Notes under the pieces: model-generated | What the model was told of the DNA's origin: nothing | Database searches by the model: none | Seen by the model: the letters and a program-made list of their open reading frames with translations, nothing else | Translations under genes and position numbers: made by a program | Shown: positions 4,492-10,708 of the stretch, in pieces | How the letters are laid out: each line of letters begins with the position of its first letter | Numbering within the stretch: position 1 is the stretch's first letter | Source of the DNA: a virus | Virus record (IMG/VR): IMGVR_UViG_3300009168_000070 | Location: 1 to 41,283 of that record | Strand: one strand, 5' to 3' | Length of the DNA: 41,283 nt

Positions 4492-4599
4492 TTACCTCCG
4501 GGAATCGATTATCTTGCTTGGGTTAATGGTTCTATATACCCACAGGCGCGATCGTTCGTCCTGGATCGCTGGACCCTGGTAAAATACGTGCTTGGTCAC
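4492..4599 (-). CDS. Possible 35-aa small protein overlapping the rusA stop
   Basis: A GTG at 4599 overlaps the RusA stop as GTGA, the same junction type used throughout this operon. It opens a 35-codon frame (starting MTKHVFYQGPAIQDERSR) ending in TAA at 4492, where the SD of the next gene begins. It fills the only gap between rusA and the Cys-rich gene. Composition looks protein-like (aromatic and charged residues well spread). No domain can be named. Confidence 0.45.
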   Translation of the reverse strand: MTKHVFYQGPAIQDERSRLWVYRTINPSKIIDSRR

Positions 4600-5084
4600 G
4601 GTATCAAAATTTCACCCAAGTATTCCGACCTCCGAGTGGTGTTGTTGTACGCTATGCGAAGCAACTCTTCTGCGTATTCCCCGATCTTCTCGCAGATCCT
4701 GATCTCTACCCCCACAGGGTGGTCGTCTGCGTACCACTTCCCCCCGCATCTGCCCACGCATTGACAGTCATCGCGGTAGACTATCCCCGTCATCGCGTCG
4801 TAGACGGCTCGGAGCAGCTTGTCATCATCTGGCGCCGTGATCGGGTACGGCCGCTTCGCGCGTTTCACGGATTTTGGTCGTGGCAGATAGAAATCTACCA
4901 CGATCCAGACCGGGCCATCAACAGGAGGCCTACCTCCCATGGCTGATTTCGCGGCATAGCTCACCGCGTCCTGCCATGGCCGGGTCTCCGAGCTGTCGTT
5001 GATCATGCGAGCATGCTTGCCGCACCTAATCGTCCGCATGCTCCCCTTGGGAGCCGGGATACCTACCACTGAAAATGTGATCAT
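4596..5084 (-). CDS. rusA: RusA-family Holliday junction resolvase (162 aa)
   Basis: RusA enzymes cut four-way DNA junctions as dimers, resolving recombination and replication intermediates before packaging. The family hallmark is visible: an acidic cluster P-D86-D87-D88-K89, then D96 in the AVYDAMTGIVY helix, D105-D106 after it, and K116 in GGKWYA. This matches the catalytic Asp/Lys arrangement of RusA. The N-terminal strand FSVVGIPAPKGSMR is also typical. Length is slightly above the 120 residues of E. coli RusA because of a C-terminal extension. It overlaps its upstream neighbour by 4 bp. It probably works with the annealing protein and SbcCD encoded on the other operon. Confidence 0.93.
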   Translation of the reverse strand: MITFSVVGIPAPKGSMRTIRCGKHARMINDSSETRPWQDAVSYAAKSAMGGRPPVDGPVWIVVDFYLPRPKSVKRAKRPYPITAPDDDKLLRAVYDAMTGIVYRDDCQCVGRCGGKWYADDHPVGVEIRICEKIGEYAEELLRIAYNNTTRRSEYLGEILIP

Positions 5085-5284: not shown

Positions 5285-5544
5285 AGCCCCTCCTTGTCGA
5301 GCCATTGCATAAGCTCGCTTTCGTTGAAAGACACAAGCAGCCCAAGGCGTGAGCGATCCAGCACGACGCCAAGCGGACTGCCTCGCCCTGCCAAATACGC
5401 ACGCATGCCGCGCTTACCGCGCCTGCCAGGAAGTATCAGATCGACCCGACCAAACAGGCCGAAACAGCTTTCTCGCAAATTGTCCCAGCCAACGTATTTT
5501 GGGACGACAATCAGGTTTTCGCACAATCTTTTCGGCTCTATCAT
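5281..5544 (-). CDS. Hypothetical protein (87 aa)
   Basis: Good SD (GGGAGGGG) before the ATG at 5544, with ATGA overlaps at both ends. It is a compact alpha/beta-looking protein with a glycine/arginine-rich centre (LILPGRRGKRGMRAYLAGRG). No family is recognised. It lies between the putative helicase loader and the zinc-ribbon gene. Confidence 0.65.
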   Translation of the reverse strand: MIEPKRLCENLIVVPKYVGWDNLRESCFGLFGRVDLILPGRRGKRGMRAYLAGRGSPLGVVLDRSRLGLLVSFNESELMQWLDKEGL

Positions 5545-6065
5545 TCGCCCCTCCCTGTCGCATCGGCGTAGCTCGTCGGGCCACTGTAGCCGGCGAGATC
5601 CGCGATTGTTTGTGGTAGCTGCTCTGGCTGGCTTTCGAGTAGGTAATCGCCGTAAGCCTGCACCGTCGCTGTTTCCGGGTCGAACCCGGACCGGATGTGC
5701 TGATCGGTAAGCACGTCGACCCGATACCGAGCCTCTTGTGACAACGAGCGCATCTTCTCGAGGATGTCCCTGTACCAGATGTGATGGGCAAGCTGTACCG
5801 GGCCTTGCGGCCTGTACTCTTGCTGATCGTAAGTCTGCACCGGCTTACTTGAATCACACACCATAACCCTGAAATCGTGTGGCGACGGGCATTTGTCGAG
5901 CTGCCTCACCGCTCGCACTACTGCGGCCTCGATTTTATCTATCGGCAGGTCTTCGAGCGCCATCAAATACGGCCGCCGCATTTCTGGCTTGACAATGTTA
6001 GACCAGCCATACTTGAGATCGTCGATAGCCTGCTCAAAACGCTTCATGTCGGTATTCTTATCCAT
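5541..6065 (-). CDS. Putative replicative helicase loader (174 aa)
   Basis: The N-terminal 75 residues (LKYGWSNIVKPEMRRPYLMA, then LEDLPIDKIEAAVVRAVRQL and PSPHDFRVM) match the pattern of small helical phage proteins that deliver helicase to the origin, such as the G39P-like loaders. These share the features short helix bundle, hydrophobic D-L-P, and CPSP/FFP-type turn before the last helix. The C-terminal half is polar and probably flexible. It directly follows the initiator gene (they share one base at 6065), the usual place for a lambda P-like partner. No ATPase motif is present, so it would be a loader without ATPase. Family call is inference. Confidence 0.55.
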   Translation of the reverse strand: MDKNTDMKRFEQAIDDLKYGWSNIVKPEMRRPYLMALEDLPIDKIEAAVVRAVRQLDKCPSPHDFRVMVCDSSKPVQTYDQQEYRPQGPVQLAHHIWYRDILEKMRSLSQEARYRVDVLTDQHIRSGFDPETATVQAYGDYLLESQPEQLPQTIADLAGYSGPTSYADATGRGE

Positions 6066-6994
6066 CAGATCAATCCTTCTGCCCAGTGCTTCTTTACCGG
6101 GGCCTCATGTTTTTCGGCCGGCTGAGTTACCGAGTTTGCAATGAATCGCTCGACATGCGAACCGCCTCGGCATATCAGCTCCAGGTCAACCCACATCTGG
6201 CCGGTATCATTCTCGCCACGGTTGAATGGGGTCATCAGGCAGCCGGTAACGGCCTGGCATAGCTGCTCGATCGTGTAGCCCTCGGTCAACCTTGCCTGCA
6301 CCTTCCTCAGCCTTGCCTTCGTGAATTTCCAGGATTCTGGATTGCCTGGTATCCCGAGTCTACCTGCCTCTTTTTTCCAGTGCTCGAAAATTATCTTCGG
6401 ATCGGGTTTCGGTGTTTTTGCGGCTTCCTCGACATCAAGATCAGGATTTGGATCGAAAACTTGATCCGGATCCGAAACAGGTCGATCGAAAGATCGACAT
6501 ATCTCTTCTTCCTGTTCCTGTTCCTGTTCCTGTTCCTGTTCCTGTTCCTGATTAGGCCAGCCCTGACGAAAGGCTTTGCCAAAGCCTTCCCCTAAGCCTT
6601 CCGTGAAGGCTTTAAGTTTTTGATATGCTTTTGTTTTTATGTGGCAGTTCGGAATGTCCTGAAAATGCTTCCCCCAACCACGCACAACATTCGGGGATTC
6701 GGGGGGATTATGGTCTATCGCTTTCGGGATCCAGATCACCCGAAGTTTTTCGTCTGCTTCCACTAAGCCTTCACGAAAGACTTCCCGAAAGGCTTCCGAA
6801 AGGCTTTCCGGATCCCATCCAAGATCGTCGGCAATCGCTCCCCTTCCGGCGACAAAAAGCCCCGGTATGCTGGTAGAGTATGGGCAGGTAAGTAGATACA
6901 GCCAAAGGCCTTGGCCGCATGGTTTAATTCGAGACAATCGGACGAATCGTTCGTCTCGCCAAACCCTTGGTTCAACTTTTTTGTATCGAGCCAT
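6065..6994 (-). CDS. Phage replication initiator, O-like (309 aa)
   Basis: The start is set at 6994 (MARYKKVEPRVW), overlapping the upstream stop, rather than the longer frame from 7108. Residues 1-110 form a winged-helix-like domain (RVWRDERFVRLSRIKPCGQG, then LGWDPESLSEAFREVFREGL) common to phage replisome organisers. The middle holds a (QE)7 linker. The C-terminal domain (IFEHWKKEAG, then KFTKARLRKVQARLTEGYT) matches the conserved tail of such initiators. In lambdoid phages the origin lies inside this gene, and here the gene contains two clusters of AAGGCTT repeats in 12-bp register. It probably binds its own coding sequence and recruits the loader encoded next door. Confidence 0.75.
   Translation of the reverse strand: MARYKKVEPRVWRDERFVRLSRIKPCGQGLWLYLLTCPYSTSIPGLFVAGRGAIADDLGWDPESLSEAFREVFREGLVEADEKLRVIWIPKAIDHNPPESPNVVRGWGKHFQDIPNCHIKTKAYQKLKAFTEGLGEGFGKAFRQGWPNQEQEQEQEQEQEQEEEICRSFDRPVSDPDQVFDPNPDLDVEEAAKTPKPDPKIIFEHWKKEAGRLGIPGNPESWKFTKARLRKVQARLTEGYTIEQLCQAVTGCLMTPFNRGENDTGQMWVDLELICRGGSHVERFIANSVTQPAEKHEAPVKKHWAEGLI
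6481..6498. other. Perfect 7-bp hairpin with GAAA loop inside the initiator gene
   Basis: GTCGATC-GAAA-GATCGAC lies close to the iteron-like region and the hexamer repeat, inside the linker-coding part of the initiator gene. It may be a DNA structure of the candidate origin or a coincidence of GATC-rich codons. Nearby 6437-6476 also holds several GGATC motifs. Confidence 0.4.
6509..6550. repeat. Hexanucleotide microsatellite, 7 x TTCCTG
   Basis: Seven perfect TTCCTG units in tandem encode a (Gln-Glu)7 linker in the initiator on the minus strand. Length change by one unit keeps the frame, so the linker can vary without loss of the protein. Confidence 0.9.
6570..6806. repeat. Iteron-like AAGGCTT/AAGCCTT clusters, candidate phage origin
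   Basis: The 7-mer AAGGCTT or its complement starts at 6570, 6582, 6594 and 6606 (exact 12-bp steps). It starts again at 6765, 6789 and 6800, with a one-base variant (aagactt) at 6777. Neighbouring copies form inverted repeats (8-bp arms 6570-6577/6581-6588, and 6594-6601/6605-6612). An A/T-rich stretch, 6610-6640, touches the first cluster. The arrangement resembles the lambda origin inside gene O. The same codons give a 4-residue protein periodicity, so a protein-level cause is also possible. Confidence 0.55.
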
Positions 6995-7800: not shown

Positions 7801-8301
7801 TCAGATCACCTTTCCCAGCAACATGAAACTCTCCAGAAACAGGTCAGCGTTTGGCCCGATATAGAACGCCACCTGGCCGCGATTGTTGTTTTCAAGAGGC
7901 TGAAGGTCGGGTCCGAGGAACGACACCCGATGGTTGAGGAAACAGATCCCGCTCTGAAGCTCAAGCAGTCGCTGGAACCACCACGTCTCGGTCGCGTTGT
8001 TGACGAGGACGACGGCCCGATCGACCGTGCACGAGCCGTTTACCGCGCTGTAGAGCTTCTGGACAAATTTGTCGATCACCCCCCTGGTGTAAGGCGGGTT
8101 TAACCAAACACGGCCGTGCCATGGCTGTTTGAGCCCGTCATCCTTCAACGAGTAGAAATTTTTCGCCTTCACAATCTCGTTTGCCGCAGCGCATGACGCC
8201 GGGTCGAGGTCGATCCAGGCCATGGCCTCACGCGCTGCCTCGACAATGTAAGCGGGCGTGTAAAATTCACAGGTCTTGCTGCTCTGCGTGAGATGCGTCA
8301 T
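7801..8301 (-). CDS. dam: Phage DNA N-6-adenine methyltransferase, Dam type (166 aa)
   Basis: The enzyme methylates adenine in DNA using S-adenosylmethionine. The phage Dam family layout is visible: an N-terminal E-F-Y-T-P motif (12-16), DLDPAS at 31-36, and the catalytic N-P-P-Y at 68-71 within VWLNPPYTRG. Residues about 95-110 (RAVVLVNNATETWWFQ) and GQVAFYIG complete the fold. Length is normal for the compact phage Dam family. An AAAGGGGAAG site precedes the ATG at 8301, which overlaps the upstream gene by 4 bp. Likely role: protection against host restriction, or marking of phage DNA. A remnant of an unrelated methylase follows it. Confidence 0.92.
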   Translation of the reverse strand: MTHLTQSSKTCEFYTPAYIVEAAREAMAWIDLDPASCAAANEIVKAKNFYSLKDDGLKQPWHGRVWLNPPYTRGVIDKFVQKLYSAVNGSCTVDRAVVLVNNATETWWFQRLLELQSGICFLNHRVSFLGPDLQPLENNNRGQVAFYIGPNADLFLESFMLLGKVI

Positions 8302-9897: not shown

Positions 9898-10121
9898 GTC
9901 GTCTCCTTTTTATGGTAGAGTTCACAGGTGTGACCGGCCCATCCATGCCAGCTTTCGTTAACGTGGCAGACTCCTTCGTCTTTCGGCTCATATTGATCTT
10001 CGTCGCCATAAAAATCATAGTACGACTCGAAGTGTTCGCAGGTCAGGCAGTCTGGTTCGAGCTCCTTGATGCAATCTCCGCATGGCCCTTGCTTCATGAT
10101 ATCGGCTACGGTGATTTTCAT
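9894..10121 (-). CDS. Cys/His-rich microprotein (75 aa)
   Basis: The start at 10121 (MKITVADIMKQGPCGDC) overlaps the RNA ligase stop and follows a GGGGTGGGG stretch; the longer frame is a shadow of the ligase. It contains C-G-D-C, C-L-T-C-E-H, and later Cys/His residues (VCHVNESWHGWAGHTCELYH), so one or two zinc sites are likely. It is strongly acidic in the middle. Translation appears coupled to the RNA ligase gene. A partner or adaptor role for the ligase is possible but unproven. Confidence 0.7.
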   Translation of the reverse strand: MKITVADIMKQGPCGDCIKELEPDCLTCEHFESYYDFYGDEDQYEPKDEGVCHVNESWHGWAGHTCELYHKKETT

Positions 10122-10708
10122 GCTATTCCCCACCCCTTCCTCTGAGTGCGCACGAGCCCAAAATCGCGGAGCTTGCATTTTGCCATCCGGCCGTCTGGAT
10201 GATGCCAGACCACACCCTCGATATCGATATCGGAGAAAAAGACCTTGATCTCGTGGTATGATCTCGGCATAGCCGGGGCAAGCCACAACCCATGCCGTAT
10301 AAGCGAGTGGTCGAACAAGCGCTCAGGGTTGCCTCCGATTTTTGGGCCGCAGAGCTCATAAGTGCCGTTGTACTGATCTATTGGTAGACTCATGTTGGGC
10401 TCTAAATCTGACCAGGCCTCGCGATGCCACTGGTCACCTGGCCCAGGACCGACAGGTATCCAACCCGGCCAATGCCCGGTCACCTCGTCCGGCTCTTGAC
10501 AGGGCTCGAAATCTGGGGGAGGAGTCTTGCCGCGCTTGCAGTCATAGCGCTTATAGAGCTTTCCATTGCGGATCATGCAGGCAGTTCCGTCAAGCTTTAC
10601 CGTAGCCTCGCCCTCGCCGGCGATCACCCACTCGCATCCCGGCGTGACCTGCTCCGTCACAAGCCCGGTCTCGAAATCACGAATAAAGAGAGATGGTATT
10701 TTTTTCAT
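10118..10708 (-). CDS. RNA ligase-like covalent nucleotidyltransferase (196 aa)
   Basis: RNA and DNA ligases activate themselves by attaching AMP to a lysine, then seal nicks. The motifs are visible in order: motif I V-K38-L-D-G41 with the nucleophile lysine, motif Ia around LYKRYD, motif III YELCGPKI (E118), motif IV I-E164-G-V-V-W, and motif V M-A-K177-C-K179. The spacing fits the short RNA-ligase-like family found in phages and actinobacteria (DUF5565 type). There is no OB or C-terminal domain, so it is a minimal ligase. It overlaps the HTH gene by 4 bp and is the second gene of the leftward operon. A role in repair of tRNA cut by host defence is plausible inference. Confidence 0.8.
   Translation of the reverse strand: MKKIPSLFIRDFETGLVTEQVTPGCEWVIAGEGEATVKLDGTACMIRNGKLYKRYDCKRGKTPPPDFEPCQEPDEVTGHWPGWIPVGPGPGDQWHREAWSDLEPNMSLPIDQYNGTYELCGPKIGGNPERLFDHSLIRHGLWLAPAMPRSYHEIKVFFSDIDIEGVVWHHPDGRMAKCKLRDFGLVRTQRKGWGIA

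Follow-up and report, generated by a model that had tools for sequence, protein, structure and literature searches.

In a 41,283-nucleotide stretch of viral DNA (IMG/VR record IMGVR_UViG_3300009168_000070, positions 1 to 41,283; hereafter the window), we analysed an array of short palindromic repeats (iterons) lying inside a replication initiator gene, together with an adjacent tract of six-base repeats. Judged by sequence comparison, hundreds of related phages conserve the palindromic repeats as DNA, in spite of shifts in reading frame. This conservation makes it very probable that a replication origin lies within the gene itself; the array would form its initiator-binding part and the hexamer tract the opening or loading site. 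The computed support consists of DNA-level selection in both iteron clusters, helical spacing across frames, family-specific sites and a fixed distance to the tract, and from these we infer that the initiator binds the array, that strands are opened at the tract, and that a helicase is loaded and replication begins. The array and its surroundings are made up of the following features.

6065..6994, minus strand: replication initiator gene, 309 amino acids (MARYKKVEPRVW...), from PHROG matches and a conserved start
6800..6806, no strand: iteron A1 (AAGSCTT, gene nucleotide 188), from a motif search
6789..6795, no strand: iteron A2, 11 base pairs (bp) from A1 and in another reading frame, from a motif search
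6777..6783, no strand: iteron A3, variant AAGWCTT, read in the sequence and fitting the 12-bp lattice
6765..6771, no strand: iteron A4, from a motif search
6613..6645, no strand: A/T-rich stretch adjoining cluster B, 73% AT
6606..6612, no strand: iteron B1, from a motif search
6594..6600, no strand: iteron B2, from a motif search
6582..6588, no strand: iteron B3, from a motif search
6570..6576, no strand: iteron B4, followed after 28 bp by the first GGAACA of the tract, from a motif search
6509..6550, minus strand: hexamer tract (CAGGAA)7, read QEQEQEQEQEQEQE, gene nucleotides 444-485, about 85% purine on one strand

A motif search of the window placed AAGGCTT, on either strand, at exactly 6570, 6582, 6594, 6606, 6765, 6789 and 6800, as an earlier note on this DNA had listed, and the variant copy at 6777 reads AAGACTT on the plus strand. 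The steps are 12 bp throughout, except for the 11 bp from 6789 to 6800; on the gene strand, cluster A lies at nucleotides 188, 199, 211 (the variant) and 223, and cluster B at 382, 394, 406 and 418. The whole window contains 15 copies of AAGGCTT/AAGCCTT compared to 4.6 expected, the eight outside the array being scattered. Within the initiator gene, shuffling of synonymous codons gave a mean of 1.87 sites against the 7 observed, a number reached in 3 of 20,000 shuffles, and AAGSCTT is the sole strongly repeated palindromic 7-mer of the gene (7 copies; runner-up, 2). The placement of the array in a replication initiator gene by the earlier note was borne out by PHROG matches, with the correction that the gene is on the minus strand. 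Its description was incomplete, leaving the (CAGGAA)7 tract at 6509-6550, beside its first cluster, unmentioned though part of the structure, and its proposal that copies pair as inverted repeats adds nothing, because AAGSCTT is a palindrome by itself.

A first scan for relatives used peptides including EQEQEQEQ, for which reason a second set was collected without the tract, using an N-terminal profile only, from IMG/VR and one genome per GTDB species. This set comprises 146 non-identical N-termini with a gene GC content of 37% to 72%; the GTDB titles are mostly Proteobacteria, with metagenome-assembled genomes (MAGs) labelled Spirochaetes, Planctomycetes, Acidobacteria and Nitrospirota in addition. 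A DNA search of a phage collection using the array region gave no match. At least three AAGSCTT sites occur in 126 of the 146 relatives, and 168 representatives hold 745 sites where synonymous shuffling predicts 182-184, making AAGSCTT a clear outlier among the 128 palindromic 7-mers, with AAGWCTT second most enriched. Only cluster A (285 compared to 67 expected) and cluster B (436 compared to 100) show this excess, the remainder of the gene being at expectation. Relatives that have no AAGSCTT (L014, L052, L053, L057, L059 and L105) carry other repeats before the tract (GNGSGNGS, PDTVPDTV and PQSFPQSF/PQSL, among others), possibly further iteron types.

The repetition might instead be a by-product of the protein, selection then acting on an amphipathic repeat of four residues (EAF/KAF) and on an acidic, disordered linker (QEQEQE); the earlier note had named a 4-residue peptide repeat as its own alternative. 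Most sites in the window do share one frame, the predicted helix 62-74 holds the conserved A68 and F69, and (EP)n or (QP)n replaces (QE)n in a few GC-rich relatives, as a flexible linker would allow. Against this stand the excess over synonymous shuffling and the use of three frames with spacing preserved: the sites are read in frames 1/0/2 in 476/251/18 cases, same-frame neighbours are 12 bp (343) or 24 bp apart, and of 37 cross-frame pairs, 34 keep a separation of 11, 23, 35 or 47 bp, where a frame change alone would equally permit 14, 17, 20 and so on. Moreover, KPS can replace KAF from the same DNA, and this tripeptide is encoded by AAGCCTTCN in 112 of 143 cases, compared to about 7% predicted from background codon use. 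Third bases at synonymous sites in relatives are thus not freely varying, which is the outcome expected of DNA-level selection. Together with sister families that step 11 bp with no peptide repeat and with identical DNA that is read GTGTGT instead of QEQEQE (both described below), these comparisons already refute the peptide-level account as a sufficient explanation, and we regard it as very improbable. The iteron-array reading of the gene is supported in that its sites are selected as DNA, and an origin would be their probable function.

Initiators with other N-terminal domains, collected by scans with the N-terminus only, also contain the hexamer tract, and carry palindromes of their own. 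RDYSKVS-type genes (46 representatives) have 137 AAGSSSCTT sites compared to 10.8 expected, and RDYGKVH-type genes (56 representatives) have 343 AASSSTT sites other than GSC compared to 59.8 expected; each family lacks the others' palindrome excess, and AAGSCTT is depleted in RDYGKVH genes (7 against 20.6 expected). These sites occupy the same two places in the gene as clusters A and B, at a commonest spacing of 11 bp, which rotates the frame (53/72/12 for AAGSSSCTT; 130/104/109 for AASSSTT). Since the steps are mostly 11 bp and rotate the frame, a peptide repeat cannot produce them. The change of site identity with the N-terminal domain family points, indirectly, to binding of the sites by the initiator.

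The hexamer tract is found in 117 of the 146 relatives, which were selected without using it; by family, it is present in 138 of 168 representatives (partly EQEQ-selected), 39 of 46 RDYSKVS-type and 33 of 56 RDYGKVH-type genes. The distance from the last iteron to the tract is 17, 29 or 41 bp in frame 0 and 28, 40 or 52 bp in frame 1, corresponding to the iteron lattice. The tract is mostly read QEQEQE, and elsewhere GTGTGT or GAGTGT from the same DNA GCGAATCAGGAACAGG (L026, L028, L032, L050, L053, L265 and L323; in sister families, L102, L130 and L149), several of these cases keeping the preceding bases GAATCAGGA, which are read NQE in other genes. Codon use in the tract departs from that in the rest of the gene, with CAG at 0.90 compared to 0.60 and GAA at 0.62 compared to 0.39 in GC-rich genes. 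The apparently simple glutamine-glutamate stretch of the protein is probably a shared six-base DNA repeat of the candidate origin, as far as these sequence comparisons indicate. A minority of tracts have other units (EP, QP or AACAGT-like), so the constraint on the tract is weaker than that on the iterons.

Three further lines concerning the tract were set aside. Matches reading RNRNRN (reading frame 1) are competing open frames, the true gene being in the QE frame (for example, L143, the L081 contig), and GTGTGT matches in tail or structural genes (L083, L098, L110 and L121, among others) are unrelated low-complexity repeats. The idea that DnaG primes at a CTG on the strand opposite the hexamer was left as speculation, because CAAGAG-type tracts lack CTG. 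A literature search for QEQEQEQ with phage, and for GGAACAGGAACA, returned nothing relevant within open-access texts.

A further possibility accepts the iterons as real and takes the tract for a microsatellite under little or no constraint, which slippage has expanded at a junction where modules are exchanged. The copy number of 2 to 16 hexamers among relatives, the exchange of C-terminal domains exactly downstream of the tract, and variants such as (EP)n would all fit. The same hexamer, however, accompanies different iterons in three initiator families, its lattice-fixed distance extends to frame-shifted versions of the same DNA, and with N-terminal identities as low as about 30%, a neutral repeat should have decayed or switched to another unit; we therefore consider a microsatellite unlikely, though worth keeping in view.

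The replication-initiator identity of the gene product is supported by PHROG matches and by the DnaB helicase, DnaC or loader genes that lie beside it in relatives. The start used corresponds to the conserved M of 80+ relatives, and the matches are to PHROG 25711 (E 4e-24), PHROG 1701, a DnaD-like helicase loader (E 1.5e-21), spanning residues 39-283 of the long open reading frame (the N-terminal and central part), and PHROG 16167, a replication initiation protein (E 5e-21), with a weak match of the C-terminal part to PHROG 18020, 'replication initiation O-like' (E 1.5e-5). Searches with the initiator against Pfam and NCBIfam gave no match, homology to the lambda O sequence was not found, and Pfam gave no RepA_N domain (PF06970) in the N-terminus. 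Structure prediction divides the protein as follows.

6659..6994, minus strand: N-terminal DNA-binding domain, predicted winged helix-turn-helix, about residues 1-112 (AlphaFold2)
6773..6811, minus strand: codons of the predicted helix 62-74, candidate recognition helix, overlapping cluster A (AlphaFold2 secondary structure)
6125..6403, minus strand: C-terminal helical domain, about residues 198-290, a module exchanged between relatives (AlphaFold2; PHROG 16167)

The N-terminal model has a mean predicted local distance difference test (pLDDT) score of 90.9 and an order of helices and strands consistent with a winged helix; its best Foldseek matches include plasmid initiator and Rep-DNA entries, at weak scores (E 0.02-0.08, TM about 0.4). 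Cluster A is thus predicted to sit in the codons of the recognition helix of the DNA-binding domain. The C-terminal model has five helices (mean pLDDT 83), and Foldseek returned no named fold for it and nothing better than E 1.2. L054 and L056 have near-identical C-terminal halves joined at the hexamer tract to N-terminal halves that differ, indicating module exchange at this point.

Downstream of the initiator, a second gene begins in an overlap of the kind seen between replication genes of relatives.

5541..6065, minus strand: next gene, 174 amino acids, ATGA-type start overlap with the initiator stop; candidate helicase loader by position only

In relatives this place belongs to helicase loaders, and a DnaB helicase, DnaC, loader or primase-helicase gene lies at most 1.5 kb downstream of the initiator in 76 of 122 cases, often with an ATGA overlap. 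This setting bears on whether the sites serve, through binding of the initiator or of some other phage protein, in autoregulation, copy control (handcuffing) or partition, and not in the start of replication. The separation of about 170 bp between the clusters would permit looping, intragenic sites would let a bound protein block transcription of its own gene, and in one Klebsiella phage a ParB-like gene (L526, 1689-2483) immediately precedes the sister initiator. An origin is nevertheless favoured by the fixed spacing to the hexamer tract, by the location in a replication module and by the layout shared with lambda O and pSK41 Rep, and regulatory and origin roles are not mutually exclusive; a purely regulatory function seems to us distinctly unlikely.

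Several observations weigh against an origin at this site. The 174-residue product, the candidate loader, has no family match, and a DnaD-type or helicase-loader fold for the C-terminal domain of the initiator, which we considered, was unsupported by Foldseek. GC skew was discarded as evidence of an origin, because it follows gene orientation and is uninformative. The A/T-rich stretch that the earlier note saw beside its first cluster is real in the window, where the 73% AT of 6613-6645 is reached by 175 of 41,250 windows; relatives have no conserved A/T-rich stretch, and an A+T-rich DNA-unwinding element was rejected as a conserved element. The hexamer tract that they carry instead is purine-rich, 50% GC and not A/T-rich, unlike classical DNA-unwinding elements. 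Finally, the relatives share ancestry and are non-independent, so that site counts such as the 745 copies of AAGSCTT are not probabilities.

The initiator would work like lambda O and pSK41 Rep but stands outside the lambda O and RepA_N sequence families. The lambda O gene has iterons and a strand-asymmetric tract in its middle, and a helicase-loader gene follows it (PMC7466680, PMC5043065). The likeness to ori-lambda and its Stx-phage relatives lies in the intragenic iterons and tract, and extends to E. coli K-12 phage PhiR5_2, whose sister initiator, annotated O, belongs to a cI-cro-cII-O-dnaC series and contains AAGSSSCTT sites as well as an AACAGG tract. This layout recurs in E. coli phage Fraca, Acinetobacter phage B1251 and a Klebsiella phage, and related N-termini, there accompanied by a DnaT domain and degenerate repeats, occur in Citrobacter phage Chris1 and Actinobacillus phage pPE4. 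In contrast to lambda, the window has a 7-bp palindrome core, 11/12-bp steps and two clusters, one of them within the helix codons of the DNA-binding domain, a 50% GC hexamer tract where lambda has an A+T-rich element, and an initiator of a different N-terminal domain family. In pSK41, four Rep boxes lie centrally in rep, the segment they encode is dispensable, and the N- and C-terminal domains are structurally DnaD-like (PMC5703833). Repeats inside the initiator gene are common to the window and these RepA_N staphylococcal initiators, and the window protein has the DnaD-like PHROG 1701 match alongside its weak Foldseek initiator matches; it differs in having no significant sequence or structure match to them, other repeats, proteobacterial and other hosts, and the hexamer tract. 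A winged-helix Rep can also bind one strand of unwinding-element repeats, as RK2 TrfA does with its 13-mers (PMC4081077). RK2-type iteron plasmids resemble the window in their winged-helix initiator, here predicted, and in iterons beside a second, strand-specific repeat array, which in RK2 consists of A+T-rich 13-mers outside the gene and in the window of hexamers within it. By analogy with such systems, single-strand capture is a plausible candidate role for the hexamer.

In the mechanism that we propose, the winged-helix N-terminal domain of the initiator would bind the palindromic iterons (consensus about CGRAAGSCTTYCG), which form two clusters at a spacing of roughly a turn of the helix; the strand-asymmetric (GGARCA)n tract beside them would be the place of strand opening or capture, and a host-type replicative helicase would be loaded there by the exchangeable C-terminal domain and the product of the next gene. 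More tentatively, and with some doubt, these genes may represent a large, undescribed class of phage origins, in which the codons of the recognition helix are iterons read by that same helix, and a universal (GGARCA)n, common to initiators with different iterons and to hosts as far apart as Proteobacteria, Spirochaetes and Planctomycetes, works as a shared helicase-loading or single-strand element, which would account for the QEQEQE stretches.

With the sequence rule, candidate replication origins could be located directly in uncharacterised phages and prophages by the hundred, and repetitive QEQEQE tracts of phage replication proteins could be reinterpreted as DNA elements. If the cluster A iterons are bound, the bases coding for the DNA-recognition helix would also be its target, constraining the evolution of specificity, and the two iteron-switching sister families would be a place to examine that constraint. 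The common hexamer raises the question of which shared host or phage factor reads it.

Elsewhere in the window, the initiator region is flanked by genes for a RusA-type Holliday-junction resolvase and a Dam-type methyltransferase (4596-5084 and 7801-8301, minus strand), and a 196-residue RNA ligase is encoded beside the replication region (10118-10708, minus strand; PHROG 14301, E 4e-70; Pfam RLIG1 above cut-off). Among the relatives, bins labelled as archaea (L344 and L323/L324, Thermoplasmata MAGs) contain the same initiator and iterons, and are possibly misbinned phage contigs.
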